Source of the DNA: Candidatus Zemynaea palustris
Lineage (GTDB): Bacteria; Vulcanimicrobiota; Vulcanimicrobiia; Vulcanimicrobiales; Vulcanimicrobiaceae
Direction: 5' to 3'
DNA length: 64,000 bases
Assembly: GCA_003134695.1 (NCBI GenBank)
Contig: PLCB01000012.1
Span: forward strand, 62,001-126,000
Made by a program: the position numbers and the translations under genes. Shown here piece after piece: positions 38,979 to 61,218 of the stretch (the stretch's first letter is position 1; each line of letters begins with the position of its first letter). Under the pieces are notes generated by a model. That model ran no database searches. It was not told the origin of the DNA and saw nothing but the letters and a program-made list of their open reading frames with translations.

Positions 38979-39042
38979 GCGGAACCAAGACGGAACCGGG
39001 CGGGACTAGGTTTGTCGGGTGGGCCCGGGCATCATTTTGGTC
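38979..39042 (+). promoter_or_regulatory. Cytochrome oxidase operon promoter element with SARP-type heptamer repeats
   Basis: CGGAACC occurs at 38980-38986 and again at 38991-38997, separated by AAGA, giving an 11-base period. Nine bases later TAGGTT (39007-39012) could serve as a -10 box. Bases 38979-39013 are identical at 32 of 35 positions to the minus-strand element at 59859-59825 before the nitrate operon. TTTTGGTC follows at 39035-39042 (21 bases after the element; 22 at the other site). SARP activators bind heptamer direct repeats with 11-base periodicity in place of a -35 box. The coxB start is 35 bases further on. Confidence 0.7.
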
Positions 39043-39077
39043 GCGATAGTCATGGCGTACGAGCGGGGAGATAGACT

Positions 39078-40181
39078 TTGTTTCAGAGCCCGAGCGTAGT
39101 TCGTTTCAAGGGGCTCGGACCCGGCTTCTGGCCGGTGACCATCGTGCTGGCGCTGCTCAGCATCGCCAACGCGTGGTACTTCCTCTACGGGAATATCGAC
39201 TGGATCATGCCGGGCGCGTCGCAGCCCGTGGCCGACCGCGCTTCCGACATCGACGGACTCTTCAAGTTCATGGCGGTGTCCAGCGGCGCGATCATGATTT
39301 TCGTCGCGGGGTACGTGATCTATTTCGCCATCGCCTTCCGCGCTCGCCCGACCGATTCGCCGGACACGATCGGCGTCCAAATTCACGACTCGCCGAAGCT
39401 CGAGCTGTGGTGGACGGTGCTCCCGGCGCTGCTGCTGATTCTCCTTACGGCGCTCAGCATCAATGTCTGGTACAAGATCTATTTCGGCACCAAAGCACCC
39501 GCCCTGACGATGGAAGTCATCGGCCATCAGTTCTATTTCGAATTCCGCTACCCCGGCCTGAAGACGTCGGTATTTTCGAAGACCGAGCCGATGCATCTGC
39601 CGGTCGGTGTGCCGGTGCGGCTCCTGATCACCTCGACCGACGTGATCCACCAGTTCTGGGTACCGGAGATTCGGCTCAAGTCGGCCGGCGTGCCGGGGCT
39701 CGTGCAGAGCCTCAACTTCACCCCGCTGCGGACCGGAACGTACGACATCGCCTGCGCCGAGTTTTGCGGCGCCGACCACAGCCTGATGCGCGGCAAGCTC
39801 GTGATCGAGCCCGTCGCCACCTTCAACAAGTGGCTCGACAGCGAGAATAAAACCGCGGCGGCCGGCGGCGGCGCGATCAACCTAGCAGGCGGGAGCGCCG
39901 GCACGGGCAAAACGCTGTTTGCGCAAAAGTGCGCCGCGTGCCACAACAACCCGCCGACGCCATTCGACCAGAAGCTCGTCGGCCCCGGACTGCTTCATAT
40001 CACCGACGACCCGGCGCACCCAACCCTGGTTACCGGCAAGACCCCGACCCCCGAGCACATCGCCGAGATCCTGCAGAACGGTTTCACCGGACCGATCGGC
40101 ACGATGCCCAACCGTCAAGCCAACGGACTCTCGGACAAAGACATCGCCAACGCCGTCGCTTACCTCACCAGCCTCAAGTAG
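39078..40181 (+). CDS. coxB: Cytochrome c oxidase subunit II with fused cytochrome c (caa3 type)
   Basis: 367 residues from TTG 39078, preceded by GGGGAG. Two membrane helices (~20-38, ~68-88) with a further hydrophobic segment at 110-132 (ELWWTVLPALLLILLTALSINV). The CuA domain has H191 (VIHQFWVPEIRL) and C226, E228, C230, H234, M237 in CAEFCGADHSLM. A C-terminal cytochrome c domain has CAACH at 285-289. Electrons therefore enter through the fused cytochrome to CuA and then to subunit I. It is the first gene of coxBACD plus one small gene. Confidence 0.97.
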   Translation: MFQSPSVVRFKGLGPGFWPVTIVLALLSIANAWYFLYGNIDWIMPGASQPVADRASDIDGLFKFMAVSSGAIMIFVAGYVIYFAIAFRARPTDSPDTIGVQIHDSPKLELWWTVLPALLLILLTALSINVWYKIYFGTKAPALTMEVIGHQFYFEFRYPGLKTSVFSKTEPMHLPVGVPVRLLITSTDVIHQFWVPEIRLKSAGVPGLVQSLNFTPLRTGTYDIACAEFCGADHSLMRGKLVIEPVATFNKWLDSENKTAAAGGGAINLAGGSAGTGKTLFAQKCAACHNNPPTPFDQKLVGPGLLHITDDPAHPTLVTGKTPTPEHIAEILQNGFTGPIGTMPNRQANGLSDKDIANAVAYLTSLK

Positions 40182-40211
40182 CCTCAGCCCCCACGTAAGG
40201 GAGATCGCAGT

Positions 40212-41942
40212 ATGCAAGCCGGAACGAGTACGACGCACGAAGCCCACGACGCTCACGATCACATCCATCCGCCACCGGAAGGGTTCGTTCGAAAGTACGT
40301 CTTTTCGCTCGACCACAAGGTGATCGGGTTCCAATACTTCTTCACCGGTTTGCTGATCATGTTCATCGCCGGGTCGTTTGCGGAACTCGTCCGCCTGCAG
40401 TTGACCGATCCCAACGGCGCGATCATGAGCCATACCGCCTACAACGAGATGTTCTCGATGCACGGCACGGCGATGGTTTGGCTGGTGCTGATTCCGCTCG
40501 TGACCGGAGCGCTCGGCAACTTCGTGATGCCGCTCCAGATCGGCGCGCGCGACGTCGCCTTTCCCTGGCTCAACATGGCGAGCTTTTGGATCTTGCCCGT
40601 CGCGGCCTTGATACTCTTCAGTTCAATGCTGTGGGGCGGCCCGCATGCCGGCTGGACCGAATATCCGCCGATCTCGTTGGCGGATGGAACGGCTGGCGCG
40701 CTCTGGTGCCTCGCGATCTTCACGATTGGGATCAGCTCGACGATGACCGGGCTCAACTTCATGGTCACGATCATGAAGATGCGCGCCCCCGGGATGACCT
40801 GGACCCGCATGCCGCTGTTCATCTGGGCCACGTTTGCGACCGCGCTGATGAACATGGTTGCGACCGTCGCGCTTTCAGTGGCCGTGGGCGCGCTCTTCCT
40901 CGAGCACGTGTTCAGCGTGCCCTTCTTTGACCCGGCCCGCGGGGGCAGCGTGGTCCTGTACCAGCACATGTTCTGGTTTTACTCGCATCCGGCGGTCTAC
41001 ATCTTCATCATACCGGCGTTCGGCGTCGTCTCGGAAGTGCTCCCGACTTTCGCCCGCAAACCGATCTTCGGCTACAAGATGATCGCGTTTTCGTCGATGG
41101 CGATCTCGATCTTGGCGTTTACGGTCTGGATGCACCACATGTTCCCGAGCGGCATCGCTCCCTGGCTGCAGCTGCCGTTCATGATTTTGACGTACGCGAT
41201 CGGCATCCCGACGGGAATCAAGATTTTCTCGTGGATGGCGACGATCTGGGGCGGCCGGATCCACTTCACGAGTTCCATGCTCTACGCGCTCGGCTTCCTG
41301 ATCACGTTCACCTTCGGCGGGCTCAGCGGCATCTTCTTGGCCTCGGTCCCAGTCGATCTTCACATGCACGGCACCGTTTTCGTCGTCGGACACTTCCACT
41401 ACGTGGTCGCCGGCGGCGCGGTGATGGGCTTCCTCGCCGCCGTCCCCTACTGGTACCCGAAGGCCACCGGCCGGATGCTGAACGAACGGCTCGCGCAGCT
41501 CGGCTTCTGGTTGTTCTTCATCGGCCTCAACGGGACGTTCTTGCCGATGCACTGGCTCGGACTCGAAGGTATGCCGCGTCGGACCGCGACCTATGCGGGC
41601 TTCGCTAAGGCCTTTCCGGATGCGGTGTTCTGGAATCAATTCGAGACGGCGTTCTCATTCCTGATGGCTGCTGCGATCGGGCTGCTGGCGTTCAACGTCA
41701 TTTGGAGCCTGCGCCACGGGACGCTCGCCGGAATCAACCCCTGGGGCGCGCGCACGCTCGAGTGGACGATCAGCTCGCCCCCGCCGTACTACAACTTCAA
41801 GAAGATCCCGCAGGTGTTCGACCGCCCGTACAACTTCGACCAACCCTTGCCGTATCGCAATACCGACAACGAACTCGACGAGTTCCCTGAGTTCGGTAGG
41901 GTCCTCATGCCGATCCCACAGCCCGTCGGCGCCGGAGCGTAG
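40212..41942 (+). CDS. coxA: Cytochrome c oxidase subunit I (A2-type haem-copper oxidase)
   Basis: 576 residues with 12 or more membrane helices. Low-spin haem ligand His is in MFSMHGTAMVW. The CuB/Tyr loop reads WFYSHPAVYIFIIPAFG: YSHPAVY in place of GHPEVY marks the A2 subfamily, in which the proton-channel Glu is replaced by the Tyr-Ser pair. The CuB histidines continue in WMHHMF, and HGTVFVVGHFHYVVAGG carries the high-spin haem ligand and second haem a ligand. It is the catalytic O2-reducing subunit in the cytoplasmic membrane. Confidence 0.98.
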   Translation: MQAGTSTTHEAHDAHDHIHPPPEGFVRKYVFSLDHKVIGFQYFFTGLLIMFIAGSFAELVRLQLTDPNGAIMSHTAYNEMFSMHGTAMVWLVLIPLVTGALGNFVMPLQIGARDVAFPWLNMASFWILPVAALILFSSMLWGGPHAGWTEYPPISLADGTAGALWCLAIFTIGISSTMTGLNFMVTIMKMRAPGMTWTRMPLFIWATFATALMNMVATVALSVAVGALFLEHVFSVPFFDPARGGSVVLYQHMFWFYSHPAVYIFIIPAFGVVSEVLPTFARKPIFGYKMIAFSSMAISILAFTVWMHHMFPSGIAPWLQLPFMILTYAIGIPTGIKIFSWMATIWGGRIHFTSSMLYALGFLITFTFGGLSGIFLASVPVDLHMHGTVFVVGHFHYVVAGGAVMGFLAAVPYWYPKATGRMLNERLAQLGFWLFFIGLNGTFLPMHWLGLEGMPRRTATYAGFAKAFPDAVFWNQFETAFSFLMAAAIGLLAFNVIWSLRHGTLAGINPWGARTLEWTISSPPPYYNFKKIPQVFDRPYNFDQPLPYRNTDNELDEFPEFGRVLMPIPQPVGAGA

Positions 41943-41945
41943 CGG

Positions 41946-42581
41946 ATGGCGGCTGCGGCGGCCCAGCACCTCAGCGGGCACGATGCGATTGCTGCCCGCT
42001 ATCGCGACGTCGACCCCGTCTATGGCGAAACGCGCGACATCAGGCTGCTGGGGTTCGTCTTCTTCCTGCTCAGCGACTGCATCCTGTTCTCGTCGTTCAT
42101 CTTTGCGTACGTGTATCTGCGCATCTCCGCGCCGGCCTGGCCGCCCTTCCTGGGCGGCCATCAGCTCCCATGGTTCGACACGAGCTTCGCGGCGATGAAC
42201 TCGATCGTGCTGTTCGGCTCAGGGGTGACGATGCACTTCGCCCTCGAGAACTGGAAGCACCTCAACAAAGCGAAGTTCAACGGATGGCTGATCGCGACGA
42301 TCGTGCTGGGCATCGGCTTCCTGCTCGGTCAAGCGCACGAATACTCGGTCGTGGGCATCTCCTGGACAGGTACCACGATGGGTGCGTCGTTCTTCACCTT
42401 GACCGGGATGCACGGGTTTCACGTCTTCGCCGGCGTCTGCTACCTGACCATATTGGGCCTACAGGCGAATCGCGGCACGTACACCGGCTCCAAGTATTTC
42501 GGGTTGACGGCGGGGACGCTTTACTGGCACTTCGTCGACGTGATCTGGGTCTTTCTATTTTTCCTATTCTATATATGGTGA
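41946..42581 (+). CDS. coxC: Cytochrome c oxidase subunit III
   Basis: 211 residues, starting 3 bases after coxA. Five hydrophobic helices include LGFVFFLLSDCILFSSFIFAYVYL and TGMHGFHVFAGVCYLTILG, ending in the conserved GTLYWHFVDVIWVFLFFLFYIW. The opening lacks the two extra N-terminal helices of mitochondrial subunit III, as in quinol-oxidase-like or caa3 forms. Its stop touches the start of coxD. Confidence 0.96.
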   Translation: MAAAAAQHLSGHDAIAARYRDVDPVYGETRDIRLLGFVFFLLSDCILFSSFIFAYVYLRISAPAWPPFLGGHQLPWFDTSFAAMNSIVLFGSGVTMHFALENWKHLNKAKFNGWLIATIVLGIGFLLGQAHEYSVVGISWTGTTMGASFFTLTGMHGFHVFAGVCYLTILGLQANRGTYTGSKYFGLTAGTLYWHFVDVIWVFLFFLFYIW

Positions 42582-48771: not shown

Positions 48772-48792
48772 TAGGAGCCCGGCAGGCTCCTA
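48772..48792 (-). terminator. Hairpin terminator at the end of the nitrate operon (after moaA)
   Basis: TAGGAGCC (48772-48779) pairs perfectly with GGCTCCTA (48785-48792) around CGGCA. The stem includes the moaA stop codon and is flanked by direct repeats of GCCGCCGA. No T tract follows on the minus strand. Confidence 0.6.
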
Positions 48793-49824
48793 GCCGCCGA
48801 TTTCGGAGAAGGCGCGCATGCGGCTTGATTGCTCGCCGAGGCGCAGGTGATGGCGCTCGGGTTTGATGAGCATACTGCCGCGAAAGATCTCCATGAGGTC
48901 ATCGCGCGATGCGCCTGCTCGCACCGGCGTGCGCAAGTCGATGTGTTGGTCGCCGAAGAGACAGAGGCGCAGGCGACCGTCAGCGGAAAGGCGCACACGG
49001 TTGCAGCGCTCGCAGTAGTCGTGCGAGAGCGGGCTGATGACCCCAACGGCCCCGCGGGCGCCGCGAAACGCGAAGTATCGGGCGGGGCCATTCCCTTGCG
49101 GGCCGTCCACCGGGACGAGTTCGCCGATCTCACCGATGCGCGCGAGCATCTCGTCGGCGGAAACGTAGGCGTCGCGCTGCAGGTCGAGGTTGTCTTCGAC
49201 CGGCATCAGTTCGATGAAGCGAACGAAGATTGCGCGTTCGCGCGTCAGGGCCGCCAACTTGGCCAGTTCGTCATCGTTGCGGCCACGCATCACCACGCAG
49301 TTGATCTTCAACGGCTCGAGACCGGCCCGGAGCGCCGCGTCGATTCCGGCCAGAACGCGGTCGAGACCGGGTCGTCGCGCGATTGCGAAGAACCGGTCTT
49401 CGCGTAAAGTGTCGAGCGAGATGTTGACGCGACGTAAGCCCGCGTCAACCAGCGCGTCGACCTGGTCTGCGAGCATCATCCCGTTCGTGGACAACGCGAT
49501 GTCGTCGATACCGGGGATCGCGGCGAGCATCCGCACCAACTTCGGCAGGTCGCGCCGGATGAGCGGCTCGCCCCCCGTCAGCCGGATACTGCGTACGCCG
49601 ATCGCGGCGCCGGCTTCCACGATTCGTTCGATCTCTTCAAAGGTCAGAATCTCGGCCTTTTGAATCCAGGGCAGACCTTCTTCGGGCATGCAATAGACGC
49701 AGCGCAGGTTGCACCGGTCGGTAACCGAGATCCGCAAATAGGTGATCGGCCGCCGGAATTGATCCATCAGGGGAGGGAGCGTCCCCGGTACGGCCGCGAT
49801 GAGATCGATCGTGTCTAGCGCCAT
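48790..49824 (-). CDS. moaA: GTP 3',8-cyclase MoaA (molybdenum cofactor synthesis)
   Basis: 344 residues from ATG 49824. This radical-SAM enzyme starts molybdopterin synthesis from GTP. The N-terminal cluster motif is CNLRCVYC (C38, C42, C45) in ISVTDRCNLRCVYCMPEEG, with LTGGEPLIRRDL and the C-terminal second cluster in CERCNRVRLSADGRLRLC. The C-terminal Gly-Gly needed for activity is present (EIGG). It is the last gene of the nitrate operon, 54 bases after the FNT gene, so cofactor supply is tied to nitrate reductase expression. Confidence 0.96.
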   Translation of the reverse strand: MALDTIDLIAAVPGTLPPLMDQFRRPITYLRISVTDRCNLRCVYCMPEEGLPWIQKAEILTFEEIERIVEAGAAIGVRSIRLTGGEPLIRRDLPKLVRMLAAIPGIDDIALSTNGMMLADQVDALVDAGLRRVNISLDTLREDRFFAIARRPGLDRVLAGIDAALRAGLEPLKINCVVMRGRNDDELAKLAALTRERAIFVRFIELMPVEDNLDLQRDAYVSADEMLARIGEIGELVPVDGPQGNGPARYFAFRGARGAVGVISPLSHDYCERCNRVRLSADGRLRLCLFGDQHIDLRTPVRAGASRDDLMEIFRGSMLIKPERHHLRLGEQSSRMRAFSEIGG

Positions 49825-49878
49825 GAACTACCCTTCGCCGGCGATGCCCTGCCGTCCGTCACCGGAGCCTGCATAACG

Positions 49879-50799
49879 TCATGCAGTGCGCGCGCGGTAG
49901 GTCCACCCGAGCGCCGCAGCCGTGAAGAGGAAGCCGCCGGCGAAGTTTCCGAGGGTCACCGGGAGTTCGTTTCCGATCCAAAAGTCGCTCTGGGTGATCG
50001 GCGCGCCGAACATCATGGCAGCCGGAATGATGAACATGTTGACGACCATGTGCTCGTAGCCCATCGCAAAGAACATGTAGATCGGGACGAACGTTGCGAT
50101 GACCTTACCGATCGCCGACCGGGACGTGTAGGGCAGGACGACGCCCAAGGTCACCATCCAATTGCAGAGCATCGCCTTCATGAAGGCCGCGATGGCTCCG
50201 GCCATGCCGAACTGTTCGTAGTGGATGGTCTTGAGCAATCCAATCTTGATTGTGATGGCGCCGATGCCGGTGGGATCCGGCGCCGCCACAACCGGGGCCG
50301 GCGCTGGGGCCGGCGCCGCTAGGGCCGCCGCAGCCGGGGCCGCCGCCACCGGGGGCGGGGGAACCGGAACGTGGACCTGGCCCATCATCGTGACCCCGGC
50401 CCACATAATGTATACGTACGCTACGGAGCCGACCAAGTTCCCAGCCCAAACCACGATCCAAGCGCGCAGCAGCTGCCCGAACGACATGCGCCGGTGAAGA
50501 AATGCCAGCGGCACGAGCGCGAAGTAGCCCGTAATCAAGTCGACTTTGGTAAGGTTGATGATGATGAATCCGACCGGAAAGAGCAGCCCGGCGATGGCCG
50601 TCGGAACCCCCTGCGCGAATGCCAAGAAGCAGATGCTCGTGGCAAAGGCGAGCAAGGCGCCGCCGAGCATGCCCCGTACGAAGATATCTCCCACCCCGAG
50701 GTCTGCCTTCGAGGCTCCGGTGGAGATCATCGTCTGGACCATCACGGCAGGCTCGATGTAATCCACGACCGGCGTGTCGGCTACAAGGGATTGGCTCAT
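49879..50799 (-). CDS. Formate/nitrite transporter (FNT) family channel with Pro/Ala insertion
   Basis: 306 residues from ATG 50799. The six-helix FNT fold is seen, including FVRGMLGGALLAFATSICFLAF, FPVGFIIINLTKVDLITGYFALVPLAF, and FMKAMLCNWMVTLGVVLPY. Residues ~145-177 form an unusual low-complexity insertion of Pro, Ala and Val (VPPPPVAAAPAAAALAAPAP and on) between helices. FNT channels carry formate, nitrite or similar monovalent anions. Next to narGHJI it most likely exports nitrite or imports nitrate/nitrite. No NarK-type transporter is in the window. Confidence 0.9.
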   Translation of the reverse strand: MSQSLVADTPVVDYIEPAVMVQTMISTGASKADLGVGDIFVRGMLGGALLAFATSICFLAFAQGVPTAIAGLLFPVGFIIINLTKVDLITGYFALVPLAFLHRRMSFGQLLRAWIVVWAGNLVGSVAYVYIMWAGVTMMGQVHVPVPPPPVAAAPAAAALAAPAPAPAPVVAAPDPTGIGAITIKIGLLKTIHYEQFGMAGAIAAFMKAMLCNWMVTLGVVLPYTSRSAIGKVIATFVPIYMFFAMGYEHMVVNMFIIPAAMMFGAPITQSDFWIGNELPVTLGNFAGGFLFTAAALGWTYRARTA

Positions 50800-51692: not shown

Positions 51693-52430
51693 TTACCCGC
51701 GCCGCAAGTAAGGCACGTCGGGTCCGATACTCGCAACGCCGACCGGCGCGTCGTACTGCACGTCTCGCTTCCGATTCCAGATGACGACCTGGTACGGTCT
51801 GAACAGGTACGGAAGCGGGAGCGTCACGACATGCACCAAGCGCGTGAACGGGAAGAGGGCGAGGATCACGAACGCGTTCAACATGTGGAGCTTGACCGGT
51901 AGCGGCATGGCCGTGACGTACTGGATCTGCGGGTTGAAGACGACGAGCGACTGCAGCCAGGGAACCGAGGTGTGCAGATACCATTCGGAGCCCCAACGGT
52001 AGAAGAACGCAATCCAGAACCCCATCACCACCTGGAACGCTAGCGCGGCGAGCAACACCCAATCCATGGCCGAGGTCACGCTCTGCGCGCGCGCATTGCT
52101 GAGCCGCCGGACGATAAGTATCAGCAGCCCGAGCGTGGCCATGACCGCCAACGCCAGCCCGGTGACTTCCAGCACGTAAAGGCGTGTTTGGTCGGCGATG
52201 AGCGCCGCCCAACCCGTGGGAAAGAGAAACCCCAGTATATGAGCGCTCAATATCAGAATGATCCCGTAATGCCACATCGTCGATCCCCAGAACGCCATCC
52301 GGTTCTCCAAGAACTGTGACGATTGGCTCGAGAAAGAGAACCGATCGTTGAAGTAGCGGTACAGTCCGACGATGACGCATACCGCGATAGCGATGTAGGG
52401 GAAAACTGCCCACAGGAACACGTTTGACAT
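51693..52430 (-). CDS. narI: Respiratory nitrate reductase gamma subunit (cytochrome b)
   Basis: 245 residues from ATG 52430. Five membrane helices carry haem b histidines H54 and H64 (MWHYGIILILSAHILGF) and H182 and H200 (LPVKLHMLNAF, FPFTRLVHVVTLPLPYLF). These match the E. coli NarI ligands His56/66/187/205. NarI takes electrons from quinol at the outer face and passes them to NarH. The C-terminal tail RPYQVVIWNRK is cytoplasmic. It is transcribed after narJ with 37 bases between them. Confidence 0.96.
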   Translation of the reverse strand: MSNVFLWAVFPYIAIAVCVIVGLYRYFNDRFSFSSQSSQFLENRMAFWGSTMWHYGIILILSAHILGFLFPTGWAALIADQTRLYVLEVTGLALAVMATLGLLILIVRRLSNARAQSVTSAMDWVLLAALAFQVVMGFWIAFFYRWGSEWYLHTSVPWLQSLVVFNPQIQYVTAMPLPVKLHMLNAFVILALFPFTRLVHVVTLPLPYLFRPYQVVIWNRKRDVQYDAPVGVASIGPDVPYLRRG

Positions 52431-52467
52431 GGTATTCCTCCGCTCGTTTTGCGAGCTCGAGAGTATG

Positions 52468-53127
52468 TTACGAAATCAAGAGCGCCGGATCGGGTAGGGG
52501 TATAGGTTGAACTTCGCTGGGCATACCGTAGCGTGCTTGCAAGACCAACCGCAGCGCATGCAGCACGTGACGATAATCGTTGCCCGTGTCGAAAACCTCC
52601 GGCGCGACCTCGCCCTCGTCGACCAGCCGCTGCCCGATCCCCGGGATGGTTTCGACCACCGGCTCCGATCCCGGTGCGACGGTCATTGGCTCGAGCGTCG
52701 GAAGCAAGGCTTCCTGAACGATTTCCCGCGTCAGCTCGGCGTCGGCACACAGCGACATGAAGCGCAGAAGCACCGCTATATGATCCGGTAATTCGACTCC
52801 CGGATCGAAACCATGTTCCCGGAATCGGTCCTGGAGCTCGAGCATAAAAGCGCTGCGCTTATAGGCTTCGCCGAACATGTGGTAGCCGACGTACGGGTGG
52901 CACGACGCATTCAAGTCGAAGGTGGAGGTGAAGATCTCCTCCACCGTATTGTGAGGCGTTCGCTCGGCGAAGGCTGCAAACTCCCCAAGGAGCGCCGCCG
53001 CCTCCGCACTCTCCGGCGCGATCAGCGTTCGGCAGTCGCGCGCCGTCTGCGCCACCCCGGGACGCGGATACTCGAGCAGTTCTGCGAACAACCCGAGAAC
53101 CCGCGACTCGTTGGTAGTGCTTTTCAC
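52468..53127 (-). CDS. narJ: Nitrate reductase assembly chaperone NarJ
   Basis: 219 residues from GTG 53127, which overlaps neither narH nor a longer convincing frame. The TorD/NarJ-like fold shows LGLFAELLEYPRPGV and the active-site-like motif HPYVGYHMFGEAYKRSAFMLEL (FDLNASCHPYVGYHMFGE). The end matches DYRHVLHALRLVLQARY. NarJ inserts the Mo-bis-MGD cofactor into NarG before membrane docking. It is 2 bases from narH. Confidence 0.93.
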   Translation of the reverse strand: MKSTTNESRVLGLFAELLEYPRPGVAQTARDCRTLIAPESAEAAALLGEFAAFAERTPHNTVEEIFTSTFDLNASCHPYVGYHMFGEAYKRSAFMLELQDRFREHGFDPGVELPDHIAVLLRFMSLCADAELTREIVQEALLPTLEPMTVAPGSEPVVETIPGIGQRLVDEGEVAPEVFDTGNDYRHVLHALRLVLQARYGMPSEVQPIPLPDPALLIS

Positions 53128-53129
53128 AG

Positions 53130-54632
53130 CTAAAATCTCCGCGCCGGCGCCTCGCGGTAACCGAACCCGGCGGCCGGTTTGTGCGTGTACGGATCGAGGC
53201 TCTGTTCGATCGCTTCTTCGCGCGCCATCGCCGGGATGACGAACCGTTCTTCCATCGTAGGCAGCGACGTCAGGTTGAAGATCGCCTCGCATTCCTCGGG
53301 CGTGGTCTTTCCGATGGCGAGAGCCTGCTGCACTTCCTCCGCGGTAATGTCTTTCACACGCTGCGCCCGCTTGTACAAGCGCACCGCGATGTTCTTGCGA
53401 TAGACCTCTTTGATGATTTCCTCGTTTCCTGCCGAGAACAAGCTCGCCATGTAGCGGACTGGTATGCGGGCTTTCTCGAGCGAATTGAGCATCTGTCCCA
53501 TGCCTTCGACGGCGGAGCTGTCGTAAATGCCGTCCTTCATCTTTCCGAGCACGGGCAGCATCGGCGGCACGTAGAACAGCTGCGGCAGGGTCCGGAACTC
53601 CGGATGCAGCGGCAGCGCGGTTCCCCACTTCTTGACGAACTTGTACGTTGGCGAATTCTGCGCTGCGCTGATCTGCTGGGTCGTGATGCCGTTCGCTTGG
53701 GCAGCGGCAATGATCAGCGGATCGAACGGGTCCTGGATGATGTCCCGCTGGGCTTGTACCAGGTTGGCCTCGTCCGCCAATGCCGTTTCCTGGATGCGAT
53801 CGGCGTCGTACAGAAGCAGACCCAAATACCGAATGCGGCCCACGCACGAGTGGAAGCAGGCTGGTGCCTGTCCCGTTTCCAAGCGCGGATAGCACAAGAT
53901 GCACTTTTCCGATTTGCCGGTCGACCAGTTGTAATAGGTCTTCTTGTAGGGGCAACCCGAGACGCACATCCGCCAGGCGCGGCACTTTTCCTGACTGATC
54001 AGGACGATGCCGTCCTCGCCGCGCTTGTAGATCGCACCGGAGGGGCACGCACCGACGCAGCTCGGATTGAGGCAATGGTTGCAGATGCGCGGCAGGTAGA
54101 AAAAGACGAGCCGCTCGACTTCGTTGAGCTGTTCGCGCTCGTGGTCGGTCAGCTTCTCCAGATTTACGTCGTTGCTGGCGTATATCGGCGAGCCGCCAAG
54201 ATCGTCGTCCCAGTTCGGTCCCGCCTCGATGTCCATCGGCTTGCCGGTAATCAGGGAGATGGGACGTGCGGTCGGCTGATCGTCGCCTTCCGGCGCGTTG
54301 AAAAGCTCGTCGTACTGATACGTCCAGGGCTCGTAATAGTCGTCGATCGTCGGCAAGTTCGGATTGAAGAAGATGTTGCCGAGTCCTTCGGTCCGGCCTT
54401 GCAAGCGCAGGCGCAGCTTGTCGCCGTCCTTTACCCAGCCGCCTTTATACTTCTCTTGGTCTTCCCACGTAGTCGGATAGCCCGTCCCGGGCTTCGTCTC
54501 CACGTTGTTCCACCACATGTACTCGGTGCCCTTACGGTCGGTCCAGATGTTCTTACAGGCGATACTGCAAGTGTGGCACCCGATGCACTTGTCGAGATGG
54601 AACACCATTGATACTTGTGCGCGTATGTCCAT
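53130..54632 (-). CDS. narH: Respiratory nitrate reductase beta subunit (Fe-S)
   Basis: 500 residues from ATG 54632. Four cluster motifs are present: C16-x2-C19-x2-C22-x3-C26 (KCIGCHTCSIACKN), C184/C187/C192/C196, C217-x2-W220-x2-C223-x3-C227 (KCRAWRMCVSGCPYKK) and C244/C247/C259/C263. Tryptophan in place of the second Cys of the third motif marks the [3Fe-4S] centre, as in E. coli NarH. NarH carries electrons from NarI haem to NarG. It follows narG after 32 bases. Confidence 0.97.
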   Translation of the reverse strand: MDIRAQVSMVFHLDKCIGCHTCSIACKNIWTDRKGTEYMWWNNVETKPGTGYPTTWEDQEKYKGGWVKDGDKLRLRLQGRTEGLGNIFFNPNLPTIDDYYEPWTYQYDELFNAPEGDDQPTARPISLITGKPMDIEAGPNWDDDLGGSPIYASNDVNLEKLTDHEREQLNEVERLVFFYLPRICNHCLNPSCVGACPSGAIYKRGEDGIVLISQEKCRAWRMCVSGCPYKKTYYNWSTGKSEKCILCYPRLETGQAPACFHSCVGRIRYLGLLLYDADRIQETALADEANLVQAQRDIIQDPFDPLIIAAAQANGITTQQISAAQNSPTYKFVKKWGTALPLHPEFRTLPQLFYVPPMLPVLGKMKDGIYDSSAVEGMGQMLNSLEKARIPVRYMASLFSAGNEEIIKEVYRKNIAVRLYKRAQRVKDITAEEVQQALAIGKTTPEECEAIFNLTSLPTMEERFVIPAMAREEAIEQSLDPYTHKPAAGFGYREAPARRF

Positions 54633-54664
54633 GTCATAAACTCCTTACGATCGACACGATCGCG

Positions 54665-57600
54665 TTACCACTCTAGCTTTTCGAGCGCACGCACGACGGC
54701 GTGCGAGTCGCGGGTCATGATGCCGATGGGGCCCCAGTAGTTGAAACCGTACGTGAACTGCCCATAGCCGCCGGCGAGTTGAAGCGGATTTATGCGCGTG
54801 CGGGTCAGACTGTTGTGTCCGCCGGCGCGCCGTCCGCCGCGGACCTGTGATTTCGGCATCGAGATCGTGCGCTCCGGCGCGTGATAGATCATGCAGGTTC
54901 CGGGCTGCACGCGCGCACTGACGGCCGCGCGCGTCACCATCACCCCGTTGTCGTTATAGACTTCGACCCATTGGTTGTCGACAATGCCGATTCGGGCCGC
55001 GTCCTTGTCGTTGATCCAGCACGGCTCGATCCCGCGCGACAGCGTCAGCATGCGCAGGTTGTCGTAGTAGGTCGAGTGGATGTGCCACTTGCCGTGCGGC
55101 GTGATGTAGTTGAGGATGAGGCTCTTGTCGTCCACCGGGCTCAGCCGGATGTCGCCCGTCTTGTGCGGATCGAGTTTGGGCTTGTAGGACGCGAAGTGCT
55201 CGCCGAAATCGATGTACCACGGATGATCGATGTATAGCTGCTCGCGTCCGGTCACCGTGCGGAAAGGAATCAAGTTGTCGATATTCATGGTCCAAGCCGA
55301 GTAGGCTCGACCATTGTTAGTTTCCCCGGACCAGCACGGGCTGGTGAGCAAGCGCCTCGTTTGCCTGGTGAGGTCGAAAAAGGTCATGCGCACGCCGCGG
55401 GTATCTTCCGCCAGCTTGGTAAGCGGTAGACCGGTGACCTCCGACTCATGCTCGAACGCGGTGTGGCTCACCTCCCCGTTCGTTTCGGGTGAAAAGTGGA
55501 GGATCGTGTTGCAGGCGTCGAGCGCGTCCTCGAGGCTCGGATATTTCTGTCCGTTCCACTCCACGCAGCGCATGTGGCGCGGGTCGGGCGAGACGGCCAC
55601 CGGATTCTGGAGGAGCTCATCGTAGAACTTTTCGGTGTGGATCTGGACGCCGTTGGCACTCATGCCGTCGGTCCGAGCGCCCGGCCCGAGCGTAATGTAC
55701 CTATTGTAGACGTTGGCGTAGTCTCGCGTTACCACGCGCAGGTGGGGCATCGTCTTGCCGGGGATCGCTTCGCACTCGTTTGCCGTCCAGTCGAGCACCT
55801 GGGGCTGAGCGATCTCGTCGGGCGTGTCGTGCATGAGCGGGAACGCGACCAGATCCTTCACCGGTTCGGGGAAGGCCAGCGGCGCCATGTCGCTGACTGC
55901 CTTGGCGAACGCCTTGAAGACGTCCCAATCGCTTCTCGATTCCCAGACCGGCGGCACCGCCGCGCCGAGCACGTGGATAAACGAATGAAGATCGGTCGAA
56001 TTGAGATCGTTCTTCTCGTACCACATCGCCGTTGGCAGGACGATGTCCGAGTACAGGGCCGAGGTGTCCATGCGGAAGTTGATGTCGATGACCAAGTCCA
56101 TCTTGCCGCGCGGCGCCGGCTCTCGGAAAATCACCTTCTTCGTCTTGCCTTGGGCGCGCTCTTCGGCGATCGCGTTGTCGTGCGTCCCCAAATAGTGACG
56201 GAGGAAGAACTCGTGACCCTTCGCGCTCGACATGATTGCGTTGCCGCGCCAGATGATCCACAGACGCGGCCAATTCTCCTCGGCGTCCGGGTCGTCCACG
56301 GAAAACTTCAGTTTGCCCGATTTTAGCTGGTCGACGGCGCTCTTGATGATCGCTTGATCGTCCTTCGCGCCGGCGGCCTGCGCCTCACGTACGAAATCCA
56401 GCGGGTTGCGATCGAACTGCGGATAGTGCGGCATCCAGCCGCGAGTAACGGCGTCGCGCTCGATGTCCATGGCATGGCCTTTGGCGAACTTCGCGTTGGG
56501 CGGTACCGCCGCGTACTCGGTGAAATCTCCCTCGTAACGCCACTGGCTGCTATTGACGTAGTGCCAGGTCGGCGACTGCTGCCTGCGGGGCGGCTTCGTC
56601 CAGTCCAGTGCAAACGCGATGGTGGCCCAAGGAGCCTGCGGCGCGAGCTTCTCCTGGCCGACGTAGTGATTCATGCCGCCGCCGTTGACCCCGCAACAGC
56701 CCGTGAAAAGCATGGCGTTGATCGGGCCTCGGTACGCGAGGCCGTTGCTGTACCAGTGATTGAGGCTCGCGCCGGTGATGCACATCGACCGGCCCCCGGT
56801 CAGCTCTGCGTTCCTCGCGAACTCACGCGCAAAGCGCGTCACCGTCTCGCGGCCGATCCCGGTGTATTGCTCCTGCCAAGCCGGCGTGAACGGTCCCAGG
56901 TCGTCGAAGCTCTTCGCGTAGTCCCCCGGCAAGCCGCGGTCGACGCCGTAGTGAGCCATATACAAATCGAAGACGGTTGCCACCGGGACGCGCCCCTTGG
57001 CGGTTTCCACGTAACGGACCGGAACGCCCCGCAACATTTGTTGCTTGGAAGCGAACTCGTAGAACCCAACCTTGAGCACTTCGTCGTGCTTATCGAGGAA
57101 ACTCAACACCGGATCGATCTTGCTATCGTCGAGTCCGTCCTCCAATTTCAGGTTCCACTTGCCCTTTTCGCCCCAGCGGAAGCCAACCGTGCCTTTGGGC
57201 ATCTTCGGCGCACCGGATTGCTGATCCATCATCAGCATTTTCCACTCGCCGTTCTCCACGCCGGCGTAATGGGCCAGCCGATTGGCCCGCAAGAGTTGAC
57301 CCGCCGTATACCCGTTAGTGGCGTCGCCCGATAGTTCTACGAGCATCGGGGCGTCGGTGTATTGCTTCACATATTTGTCGAAGTACGGGACCTTCCGATC
57401 GTGGTGGAACTCTTTGAGGATGACATGATTGACCGCCATCCAGAGCGCCGTGTCCTGGCCGGCCTTGACCGGTATCCACATATCGGAGAATTTGGCGACC
57501 TGCGAGAAATCCGGCGAGATCACCACGAACTTGGAGCCGTTGGTCCGCGCTTCGGATATGAAATGCACGTCGGGCGTACGCGTCATGTTGAGGTTCGCCG

Positions 57601-58309
57601 CGATCGAGACGATGTAGTTCGAATTGTACCAGTCGGCGCTCTCGCAGACGTCGGTCTGATCGCCCCACACTTCGGGAAACGCGTTCGGCAGGTCGGCGTA
57701 CCAATCGTAAAAACTCATGTTGACGGCGCCGATCAACTGCAAGAAGCGCGAGCCCCCGGCGTACGACACGAACGACATCGCTGGAATCGGCGCGAAGCCG
57801 AAGATGCGGTCCGGGCCCCACTTTTTCGCGGTGTACAGCGTCGATGCCGCGACGAGCTCCAGCACTTCGTTCCACGTCGTGCGGCGGAAACCGCCCTTGC
57901 CGCGGGCGCGCTGCCAGCGCTTCCGCTTTTGCTCGTCTTGCACGAGCGAGCCCCAGGCCTCAACCGGGTTGGAATGTTGAGCTTTGGCCTTACGCCAAAA
58001 ATCGAGAAGCGGGCCGCGGATGTACGGGTATTTGACGCGGATCGGACTGTAGACATACCACGAAGCCGAGATGCCCCGCTGGCAGCCACGCGGCTCGTAC
58101 GGCGGCAGCCCTTTCTCCAGCAGCGGATAGTCCGTCTGCTGCATCTCCCACGTGACGATGCCGTCCTTGACGTAAACTGCCCACGAGCAGCCGCCGGTGC
58201 AATTGACGCCGTGCGTGCTGCGCACGACCGTATCGTGCTGCCAGCGATTGCGGTAAAACTCTTCCCAGCGGCGGGATTTCGGGTCGACCAGGTCTTGAAT
58301 CCATCCCAT
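54665..58309 (-). CDS. narG: Respiratory nitrate reductase alpha subunit (Mo-bis-MGD)
   Basis: 1214 residues from ATG 58309. The [4Fe-4S] site is H33-x3-C37-x3-C41...C76 ([17 protein letters not shown]), His-ligated as in membrane nitrate reductases. The Mo ligand Asp is D226 in [11 protein letters not shown]. Other blocks are [47 protein letters not shown] and [38 protein letters not shown]. No Tat signal is visible ([20 protein letters not shown]), so the active site faces the cytoplasm. It follows the dihaem cytochrome after 3 bases. Confidence 0.98.
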
Positions 58310-58312
58310 CCG

Positions 58313-59236
58313 TTACGACCTCCGAGCGTATTTACGATAGAAGAGCATGTTGGCGCGTTCGACCAGGGGCTTGCGAACGCCGAGCAGACGCCGCCGCCAG
58401 TAGACCGCTGCGATCAAGATCAGAATGATTAAGGCAAGCCCGCCCATCAGAGTGAGCTTCCCGATGGCATCCAGGGGACGCTCGGCAACCGCGCCTTCTT
58501 TGATGAATGCGGCCAGATTCGCGATCTCTTGCGGCGTCAGAGGGTTCTTCGTCCACACCGCACTCATCGTCGGAGTCGGTACGCTCGCCAGAAAGGACTC
58601 AAGTCCGGCGGTACCACCATATTTGCGGTAGGCGTCGGTTAGGTCGGGCCCGAGCGTACCGCCGCCCAAGGCACCGATCCCGGAAATACTGTGGCAGGCC
58701 ATGCAGGCTGGGCCGCCGTTGTGGAGGCGGACGCCGCCGACGAAGATTTCCCGGCCTACGGCCGCATCGCCCGGCGGCAGCGCCGCGACCGGGACGACTG
58801 CGCCCTTTGCGGTCTTGGCTACGCTCCCGGATTGCTGGGCGACATAGGCCAGCACCGCATTGACGTCGGCTGAAGAGAGCCCAAGATCGGGCATCTGCAG
58901 AGGATATTGTTTGACAAGCTTCGTCGCCGTCGGATCGCCTGAATTGATCAGGGCGCTCGGCGCGGCAACCCATTTTGCGAGCCACGCGGGATCTTGGATG
59001 GTCGTGATGCCTTTGAGGTCTGGGCCGACACTCTTGCCTTTTCCGATCGTGTGGCAAGCGGCGCATTTCGTAGCAAAAATCGTACTGCCGTCGTCAGCTC
59101 GCGCGGCTGCCGTCGCGGACACCTGGATCAGCGCAAATGCTGCTGCCGCCAGAAAATATGCGAGCGAGACACGCCCGAAGGGAATTCGCGCAGACCATGG
59201 TCTGCTGCAATAGCCTGAGGACTGATCACCTGTCAT
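58313..59236 (-). CDS. Membrane-bound dihaem cytochrome c of the nitrate operon (NarC-like)
   Basis: 307 residues from ATG 59236, with GGAGAGGAGG upstream; the longer frame is unlikely. A signal peptide (~20-47) precedes two cytochrome c domains: C58-A-A-C61-H62 and C178-M-A-C181-H182. A C-terminal helix (TLMGGLALIILILIAAVYW) anchors it to the membrane. Thermus nar operons also start with a cytochrome gene (narC) that links NarI to periplasmic electron flow. Its 3' end lies 3 bases before narG. It probably assists or adds a periplasmic outlet to the reductase. Confidence 0.9.
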   Translation of the reverse strand: MTGDQSSGYCSRPWSARIPFGRVSLAYFLAAAAFALIQVSATAAARADDGSTIFATKCAACHTIGKGKSVGPDLKGITTIQDPAWLAKWVAAPSALINSGDPTATKLVKQYPLQMPDLGLSSADVNAVLAYVAQQSGSVAKTAKGAVVPVAALPPGDAAVGREIFVGGVRLHNGGPACMACHSISGIGALGGGTLGPDLTDAYRKYGGTAGLESFLASVPTPTMSAVWTKNPLTPQEIANLAAFIKEGAVAERPLDAIGKLTLMGGLALIILILIAAVYWRRRLLGVRKPLVERANMLFYRKYARRS

Positions 59237-59273
59237 CGTGCCTCCTCTCCCCGACAATAAAGTGTGGACTAGG

Positions 59274-59765
59274 TCAGCCGCGATATTGCACGATTTGTTG
59301 TGCAACCGCCGCATCGAAAATCTCTTCAGAACGCACGACGTGATCGGCCCGCCGGCGGTGACGATCCGCCCAGGGCTTCCACTCGCCTTCTCCTGCGACG
59401 AACCACGAGTCGTCGATGCGGCGCAACTCAATTCCGGCAGACGTCGATTCGACGACGACCGTCGAAGGCCGGAGCCTTCGTGCGGCTGCCATCCCAAGCG
59501 CCAATCCGCTGCGAACGGCGGCGCGATGTACCGTCACCCAGACGACGCAACGGGCGCCGGCGTCCAGCAATTTTCCGGTATCCCGCCGGTGCTCTGCTTC
59601 TTCGCCGGGCCGGAACGTGAGAACGCGAGTTTCACACGGCTTTTCGCGAACGCTCACTTTCAGCGCGACCGTTGGGGCGTGGGCGGCGTGCTGTCTAATG
59701 AGGCGCGCCGCCAGCGTCGTCTTGCCGACGTTCGATGCGCTGCCACCCACGACCACGATTTCCAT
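59274..59765 (-). CDS. P-loop protein, MobB-like (possible MGD synthesis)
   Basis: 163 residues from ATG 59765. It opens MEIVVVGGSASNVGKTTLAA, a Walker A P-loop (G7-x6-GK15-T16) in a SIMIBI-type NTPase. Further residues, VALKVSVREKPCETRVLTFR and VVWVTVHRAAVRSGLALGMA, fit no sharper family. In E. coli, MobB assists attachment of GMP to molybdopterin. Here it is the first gene of the nitrate operon, suggesting help in making Mo-bis-MGD for NarG. It could instead be a different small GTPase. Confidence 0.6.
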   Translation of the reverse strand: MEIVVVGGSASNVGKTTLAARLIRQHAAHAPTVALKVSVREKPCETRVLTFRPGEEAEHRRDTGKLLDAGARCVVWVTVHRAAVRSGLALGMAAARRLRPSTVVVESTSAGIELRRIDDSWFVAGEGEWKPWADRHRRRADHVVRSEEIFDAAVAQQIVQYRG

Positions 59766-59794
59766 ATAGATGCCTAACGCGCCCGAACTGCCGG

Positions 59795-59859
59795 GACCAA
59801 AACGAAGCACGATCCCATGGCCCTAAAGCTAGCCCCGCCCGGTTCCGTTTTGGTTCCGC
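59795..59859 (-). promoter_or_regulatory. Nitrate operon promoter element with SARP-type heptamer repeats
   Basis: On the minus strand, CGGAACC occurs at 59858-59852 and 59847-59841, separated by AAAA. Nine bases later TAGCTT (59831-59826) could be the -10 box. The 35 bases 59859-59825 match the cox element at 38979-39013 at 32 positions, in the same orientation to their operons. TTTTGGTC follows at 59802-59795, 22 bases after the element, and the MobB-like ATG is 29 bases further. Region 59766-59883 holds no gene. Confidence 0.7.
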
Positions 59860-59883: not shown

Positions 59884-61218
59884 TCAGACCGTGAGGCGAC
59901 CCAGGATGCTGCGGTACAGAGCTTCGGTTTCTATGAGGGGAGCCACGTCGAACTCTTCCCTCAGTGCTTGGCGGCACGCCTCGTACTGGCGTAGTGCCTG
60001 GGTGCGTCTCCCGCAGCGGCAGAGCACGTCCATGAGATCGCGGTGCACGTCTTCCAAGCAGGGATCGAGCTCCAGCATGCGGCGATAGCAGCGGATCGTC
60101 GCGTCGTAATCGCCGTCGCTGCGCAGCAGACGAGCACTCGCAAGCAGCACGTCGAACAGCCTCTCTCTCAGCTGTCTGCGCCGCCTCACGCACCAGTCGC
60201 TGTATGGCTCGTCCTCGAGGTAGTCTCCACGGTACATCTCTGCCGCGACTCGCAAGGCAACTAAGGCCTCTCTCCAGCGGCCCCGGCGTTCGAAATCAAG
60301 ACCTTCTTGGGCCATAGCCTCGAACTCCAATGCGTCGAGCCTATGAAAGGAAGCCGGATTGAAGGCGTATCCGTTCGGCTGCGTCGAGATGAATGACCCC
60401 TCGGTCTTTCCGTTCTCCGCTTCGCCCAACCCACGGCGGAGGTAGTGTGCAGCGACCTGCAAGAGCTTGACGGCGTCTTTAGGCGCATCGGAAGGCCAAA
60501 GCAGCTCGATCAGTTCGTCTCGTAGGACGACCCTGCCATAGTTCGTCAGGAGAATCTTGAGCAGCGTTACCGCACGCCTTCGGGCGAAAGAGTCGATGCT
60601 CAGGCGGGTCCTGCCCCTCCGAGCCTCAAAGCGACCGAGAACGCTTAGGTCAAGCCGCCGCTCATCAGTAGAGGGAACCTCATCGGCGACGTGCACTGCA
60701 CGCCCGGCGCTATCACCGCCGCCCTGCCGCTCGAGAATCAGAGCCAGTCGCTCCGCGTCCCGAGAAAGCGTCAAGGAATGAGAGAGGAGAGCTTCCGAGC
60801 CACGTCGCCACGCAACGTCGAGGCTACCTACCGGACGTTCCGGTCCCGGTACCGGAACGCAGAGAAAGCAACGAAAGCCCAGGTCCTTCACGTGCTCGCG
60901 GAGGAAGCGCTCGTCACTCGACGCGTCGGTAGTTCTTAGCGGCCGCCCCTGCTGCACCACAAGACCCGGATAACCTTGTCCCTCCTCAAAGCGCGTAATC
61001 TGCTTGAATGCCTCGGCGTGCGGACCGCGAAAGCCCGCCAGCGAAACGCCGGAAGCGCCGTCCTCGCGTAGAAAGATCTCGGCGACCTCGGCGCCGGTCG
61101 TGGTCAGCGCCGCATCGAGAACGTCATCGATGGCCCAGGCGCGGGTTTCGTCGTCTCCCGCTTTCGCTCGGAACTCGCCGTCGACGCCGGCTAGCTCTCT
61201 TCTTGTCAAAAGGATCAC
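59884..61218 (-). CDS. GAF-BTAD (SARP-type) transcriptional activator
   Basis: GTG 61218 with GAGG eight bases upstream gives 444 residues; a TTG at 61344 would add 42 Arg-rich residues. A GAF domain spans ~25-165 (IDDVLDAALTTTGAEVAEIFLRED; GLVVQQGRPLRTTDASSDERFL; GFRCFLCVPVPGPERPVGSLDV, with C117 and C120 close together). A winged HTH of OmpR/SARP type follows (~188-285; LSVLGRFEARRGRTRLSIDSF, then LLKILLTNYGRVVLRDELIELLWPSD). The BTAD helical domain occupies ~295-440 (RRMLELDPCLEDVHRDLMDVLCRCGRRTQALRQYEAC). SARP proteins activate transcription from heptamer repeats. Beside the nitrate operon it is a likely regulator of it. Confidence 0.9.
   Translation of the reverse strand: MILLTRRELAGVDGEFRAKAGDDETRAWAIDDVLDAALTTTGAEVAEIFLREDGASGVSLAGFRGPHAEAFKQITRFEEGQGYPGLVVQQGRPLRTTDASSDERFLREHVKDLGFRCFLCVPVPGPERPVGSLDVAWRRGSEALLSHSLTLSRDAERLALILERQGGGDSAGRAVHVADEVPSTDERRLDLSVLGRFEARRGRTRLSIDSFARRRAVTLLKILLTNYGRVVLRDELIELLWPSDAPKDAVKLLQVAAHYLRRGLGEAENGKTEGSFISTQPNGYAFNPASFHRLDALEFEAMAQEGLDFERRGRWREALVALRVAAEMYRGDYLEDEPYSDWCVRRRRQLRERLFDVLLASARLLRSDGDYDATIRCYRRMLELDPCLEDVHRDLMDVLCRCGRRTQALRQYEACRQALREEFDVAPLIETEALYRSILGRLTV

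Follow-up and report, generated by a model that had tools for sequence, protein, structure and literature searches.

Most of what is known of SARPs comes from the antibiotic clusters of actinomycetes. SARP promoters follow a simple rule, with 11-bp repeats of which the 3' repeat lies about 8 bp from the -10 element (PMC10936776). A respiratory relative is DnrS of Thermus thermophilus, encoded in the dnrST-nar locus, which combines an N-terminal GAF domain with a C-terminal BTAD (PMC5748679, PMC6282519, PMC7694296). DnrS is required for nar transcription (PMC5748679); an oxygen-dependent conformation has been reported for it, its DNA binding could not be assayed, and DnrT acts as a repressor of complex III when nitrate is respired (PMC7694296).

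A regulator of similar architecture is encoded beside a nitrate reductase operon in the window, the 64,000-nucleotide stretch of DNA analyzed here. The features on which the comparison rests are the following:

59884..61218, minus strand: GAF-SARP regulator of 444 aa, with GAF at about residues 24-165, an OmpR-type DNA-binding domain at about 189-290 and BTAD at 294-439
59841..59858, minus strand: predicted nar operator CGGAACC-AAAA-CGGAACC, an 11-bp direct repeat (exact match), present at nar in 6/6 regulator-bearing genomes of the order
59826..59831, minus strand: presumed nar -10 element TAGCTT, 9 bp past the second heptamer
59274..59765, minus strand: mobB-like gene (molybdopterin cofactor) at the head of the nar unit, assigned from its inspected translation
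58313..59248, minus strand: c-type cytochrome gene in a NarC-like position, assigned by inspection and position, start codon uncertain
51693..58309, minus strand: narG (54665-58309), narH (53130-54632), narJ (about 52468-53127) and narI (51693-52430), predicted target operon
38980..38997, plus strand: predicted cytochrome oxidase operator CGGAACC-AAGA-CGGAACC (exact match)
39007..39012, plus strand: presumed cox -10 element TAGGTT, 9 bp past the second heptamer
39078..42581, plus strand: coxB (with a cytochrome c domain), coxA and subunit III (the last from its translation by inspection), a caa3-type oxidase operon and predicted target

The regulator ORF is intact, and its GTG start aligns with the ATG start of an 87%-identical orthologue in genome G102. 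Pfam matches to GAF_2, Trans_reg_C (PF00486) and BTAD (PF03704) are all above the cut-offs and place a DNA-binding domain followed by BTAD, the domain order that defines a SARP. The protein shares the winged-helix superfamily with PhoB/OmpR response regulators but lies outside that class: its Pfam matches include no receiver domain, and it has a BTAD instead. An AlphaFold model (mean pLDDT 84.8) finds its nearest solved structures in the AfsR-RNAP transcription complexes and EmbR. EmbR of Mycobacterium tuberculosis (PDB 2FEZ, 2FF4) has the SARP core fold in common with the window protein but differs in its C-terminal FHA domain and its targets. The recognition helix region reads KDAVKLLQVAAHYLRRGL. 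In the 2.7-Mb Eremiobacterota host genome, BTAD matches number one in the window, which is this regulator, and two elsewhere. The first-pass annotation had described it as the only intact SARP-type protein in the window, encoded less than 30 bases from the nitrate element; the single BTAD match and the 25 bp between its stop codon and the nar repeats bear this out. A second SARP-like protein of the genome (L022 1282-2316, minus strand, contig C21) carries a DNA-binding domain, a BTAD and a C-terminal LuxR HTH.

The regulator gene lies upstream of, and co-directional with, the mobB-like, cytochrome c and narGHJI genes. Genes resembling moaA and a formate/nitrite transporter were also seen by inspection near narI (window 48790-50799, minus strand), consistent with a nitrate-respiration island. 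As in Thermus DnrS, an N-terminal GAF and a C-terminal BTAD are encoded by a gene adjoining a cytochrome c-narGHJI operon. A respiratory GAF-SARP had been put forward as a distinct use of the family; this does not hold, Thermus DnrS being already a GAF-BTAD activator of nar. The two systems nevertheless differ in several respects. Neither the Cys-rich PAS nor the Cys-rich second GAF of DnrS is found in the window protein, which has another recognition helix and a predicted regulon that includes a terminal oxidase. A Crp/Fnr gene follows dnrS in Thermus, while no Crp-family dnrT partner was recognized by inspection among the neighbouring ORFs of the window and on to C12:136000. Clear operator pairs are present here, unlike the Thermus promoter, where no matching repeats were found in the nar-dnr intergenic region; at Pnar/Pdnr of two T. 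thermophilus plasmids no 11-bp heptamer pair was found.

The sequence CGGAACC-N4-CGGAACC occurs exactly twice in the window, and each copy is followed by 9 bp and then TAGSTT. The 7-4-7 spacing and the 9 bases to TAGSTT that had been proposed for both elements are thus exact at the nar and coxBA promoters; the cox pair lies 81 bp upstream of coxB. At both promoters 11-bp direct repeats occupy the -35 position, the 3' repeat lying 8-9 bp from the -10, as in AfsR and the Streptomyces SARPs (PMC10936776), with which the regulator also shares the OmpR-type domain and BTAD. It differs from them in sensing through an N-terminal GAF, in its respiratory targets, in a host outside Actinomycetota and in its heptamer, CGGAACC rather than the AfsR-type CGTT(T/C)ATCG. 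Other nar promoters of the order carry similar TA-N3-T hexamers at the same 9-bp distance. The core pair GGAACCN5GGAACC was found twice in the window and in none of 100 dinucleotide-preserving shuffles. Single CGGAACC heptamers are not enriched there (20 found versus 14.9 expected); the information resides in the spaced pair.

In the whole 2.7-Mb genome there are four exact matches to GGAACCN5GGAACC: one at nar, one at cox and two in an array upstream of a NarK-family gene (C12:127477-127504), 1.5 kb beyond the window end. The narK array as a whole (L007 1480-1528, C12:127466-127514) comprises 4-5 GGAACC-type 11-bp units, inverted relative to the gene. Such inverted arrays, seen at narK in G000 and G102 (narK1) and, with TGTAAG units, upstream of coxBA in G150, are an exception that does not fit the simple SARP geometry. 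The nar and narK sites aside, no site with up to one mismatch lies within 6 kb that could mark the regulator's own promoter.

The reading that best fits these observations, to which we give a probability of roughly 85%, casts the protein as a one-component respiratory SARP of the DnrS type that activates nar, the caa3 oxidase operon and probably narK under control of a GAF signal. Two protomers, bound next to each other on the heptamer pair, would take the place of a -35 box and recruit RNA polymerase to a promoter with only a -10 element (TAGSTT). The regulator would be controlled by a signal that its N-terminal GAF detects. With one factor activating both operons, nitrate respiration and oxygen respiration would be wired together. 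A single factor at an aerobic and an anaerobic operon also invites an opposing role, in which binding of the regulator at both sites leads to repression of cox (or nar), so that the oxidase is off when nitrate respiration is on, and the repression of complex III by Thermus DnrT offers a precedent (PMC7694296). This alternative appears unlikely, since the cox and nar sites are identical in geometry (9 bp to the -10, no -35) and occupy the SARP activating position.

The distribution of the sites within the order supports the GAF-SARP as their reader. A search of 103 genomes found a close orthologue in six (G000, G102, G095, G048, G054 and G003), and orthologue, narG and nar-promoter repeats coincide in these same 6/103 genomes, with the G102 contig breaking off just short of narG, where the cytochrome c gene ends. 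All six carry a pair between the regulator and nar, even G095, where the regulator gene is in the opposite orientation and the pair still lies upstream of nar. Because the genomes are related, chance estimates that treat the six as independent are too strong. In the 97 regulator-free relatives, GGAACCN5GGAACC averages 0.31 per genome. Additional pairs in G048 (C246, C333 and C362) were set aside as background-like; nar, narK and cox genes are all missing from those contigs. All four regulator-bearing genomes with a related coxB (G000, G102, G095 and G048) have cox sites, and none of the 25 regulator-free genomes with a coxB upstream region available has one, although most of these control coxB genes, at only about 50% identity, may encode part of another oxidase; the one close control is G051 (67%). 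The orthologue in G003 has a PAS-like region (a weak Pfam match) in place of GAF, yet its DNA-binding domain and the GGAACC operator are both retained, indicating that the operator follows the DNA-binding domain.

Genes encoding GAF/PAS-BTAD proteins also lie beside nar or nitrate reductase genes in Chloroflexota (L140), a Thermaerobacter record (L141), Planctomycetota (L142), a gammaproteobacterial MAG (L143), Thermus and Deinococcus, and in G140, which belongs to the same phylum as the window genome. Several of these genomes carry a second operator type, TGTAAG-N5-TGTAAG. The only match in the L142 genome is the nar promoter, and the three in the L143 genome are at nar, a coxII-coxI oxidase and coxBA (inverted). 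The same pair precedes cytochrome c-narG in G140 and an oxidase in G110, and a one-mismatch pair lies ahead of the oxidase beside the regulator in G185, a relative of the L143 genome. Four Deinococcus plasmids have TGTTAR-N4-TTGTAAG-type pairs ahead of a narK gene as well as the nitrate operon.

At nar, narK and oxidase promoters across phyla, HYLRR-type recognition helices (general form LL[KQ]VxxHYLRRGL) pair with GGAACC and xRLH-type helices (xRLHxxxxxLR) with TGTAAG. The association, over 7 GGAACC and 8 TGTAAG cases, has a Fisher P of 1.6e-4, which is only a guide because the cases are not independent. The AfsR helix contacts bases through T88 and R92 (PMC10936776); in a sequence alignment that matches SRLRK to HYLRR, the R92 position becomes Y in the GGAACC class and A, V, S or F in the TGTAAG class. 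When the rule was checked on L141, which has an HYLRR-type helix, the sole exact GGAACC pair of that genome was found 9 bp before TACATT and upstream of a NarK-family transporter. A point against the rule is that the HYLRR-type protein of L140 faces a degenerate nar pair (GGAAGC/GGAATC), which is no more than suggestive since it is one of seven such pairs in its genome. Taken together, the cases point to an apparent recognition code linking helix to operator.

The main competing identity for the reader is an OmpR/PhoB-type response regulator, or another factor encoded elsewhere, with the GAF-BTAD gene merely sharing the island. PhoB-, PhoP- and OmpR-type response regulators also use 11-bp direct repeats near -35. 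AfsR and PhoP share the afsS site (PMC10972967), and the second SARP-like protein offers a candidate within the genome itself. This explanation is nonetheless quite improbable. None of the 103 genomes has nar or cox sites without also having the GAF/PAS-BTAD gene, the operator becomes TGTAAG where the recognition helix changes, and no other regulator was recognized among the genes common to the nar neighbourhoods. The second SARP-like protein has a different helix, LRVTLHALRRAL, and its gene adjoins ABC transporter genes. Co-occurrence, which could have tied the repeats to another regulator, thus ties them to the GAF/PAS-BTAD gene. The prediction that the GAF-BTAD protein reads CGGAACC, first made from the window alone, draws strong support from the genome-wide specificity and conserved placement of the sites, from co-occurrence and from helix/operator co-variation; judged from these sequence comparisons, the regulator very probably reads the paired heptamers at the nar and oxidase promoters.

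The first-pass annotation proposed that a Cys-x-x-Cys in the GAF domain senses redox state or NO. Both cysteines, C117 and C120, are indeed present in the window protein and in its congener G102; the sensing role is not supported and appears very improbable. At the family level it was rejected: outside the genus of the window genome C117 is replaced by Y, S and Y in G095, G048 and G054, it is absent in all the other phyla, and C120 is variable. The conserved Cys clusters of the DnrS-like proteins of other phyla sit instead in a second GAF and in an N-terminal PAS (in Thermus, CAHLVQGKDPFGRPLCARCPAL); the domain comparison finds neither a Cys-rich PAS nor a second GAF in the window protein. Such clusters were seen in Thermus DnrS (L195 8662-10467) and in the homologues L140-L142 and L229. 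Within the order the second GAF is missing from these proteins, and a PAS-like region is kept in G003 alone. For DnrS, the PAS and second-GAF clusters are better candidates than GAF1 for the oxygen sensor and form a candidate iron-sulfur or redox site. In GAF1, the conserved positions E47, G80, G82, G85, D102 and R107 suggest a ligand pocket, and a small ligand (nitrate, nitrite or other) is a more likely signal there than a CxxC redox switch.

All three of nar, cox and narK fall inside about 27 kb here, and they form a cluster in G095 as well, so the regulator and its sites may have moved as one island. That the pairs are chance or neutral, functionless DNA conserved in a recently transferred island, a view that this proximity would allow, is extremely improbable, given their absence from the shuffles, the survival of the pair and its 9-bp spacing while the regulator orthologues diverged to 44-88% identity, the position of the cox pair, which precedes a small ORF in G095 but follows it in G000, and the recurrence of the same architecture with a different sequence in unrelated phyla.

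Taken across genomes, the DnrS-like GAF/PAS-SARPs probably form a cross-phylum class of respiratory one-component regulators with two operator specificities (GGAACC/HYLRR and TGTAAG/xRLH), which would jointly switch terminal oxidases, nitrate reductase and nitrate transporters through promoters of the SARP type. The class would extend over Eremiobacterota, Planctomycetota, Gammaproteobacteria, Deinococcota and a Thermaerobacter-like lineage. The pairs suggest that one factor governs nitrate reductase and terminal oxidases in several phyla. The literature searched does not give a DnrS binding site; the pairs described here predict the DNA site of the DnrS type and give a concrete predicted operator, promoter geometry and recognition-helix code for such regulators. 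In that literature the operators, the recognition code, the terminal-oxidase link and the spread across phyla appear to be new.

TGTAAG pairs are not specific to DnrS-like proteins, being present in some Eremiobacterota without a DnrS-like gene. In L246 and L248-L252, from such genomes, TGTAAG-N5-TGTAAG pairs are kept between divergent ATPase and LuxR-type genes and probably serve another regulator as operators. G107, a 7.4-Mb genome belonging to the same phylum, has five loci with TGTAAG tandem arrays (L235, L255, L257-L260), one of them beside another BTAD gene.

A further element, TTTTGGTCSCG, is common to both window promoters, about 38 nt past the repeats (59792-59802, minus strand, and 39035-39045, plus strand). 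It is present in G102 too and weak or absent in more distant orthologues. Its reverse complement, CGSGACCAAAA, is near one operator unit in inverted orientation, and the element is possibly a third, inverted half-site in the leader.
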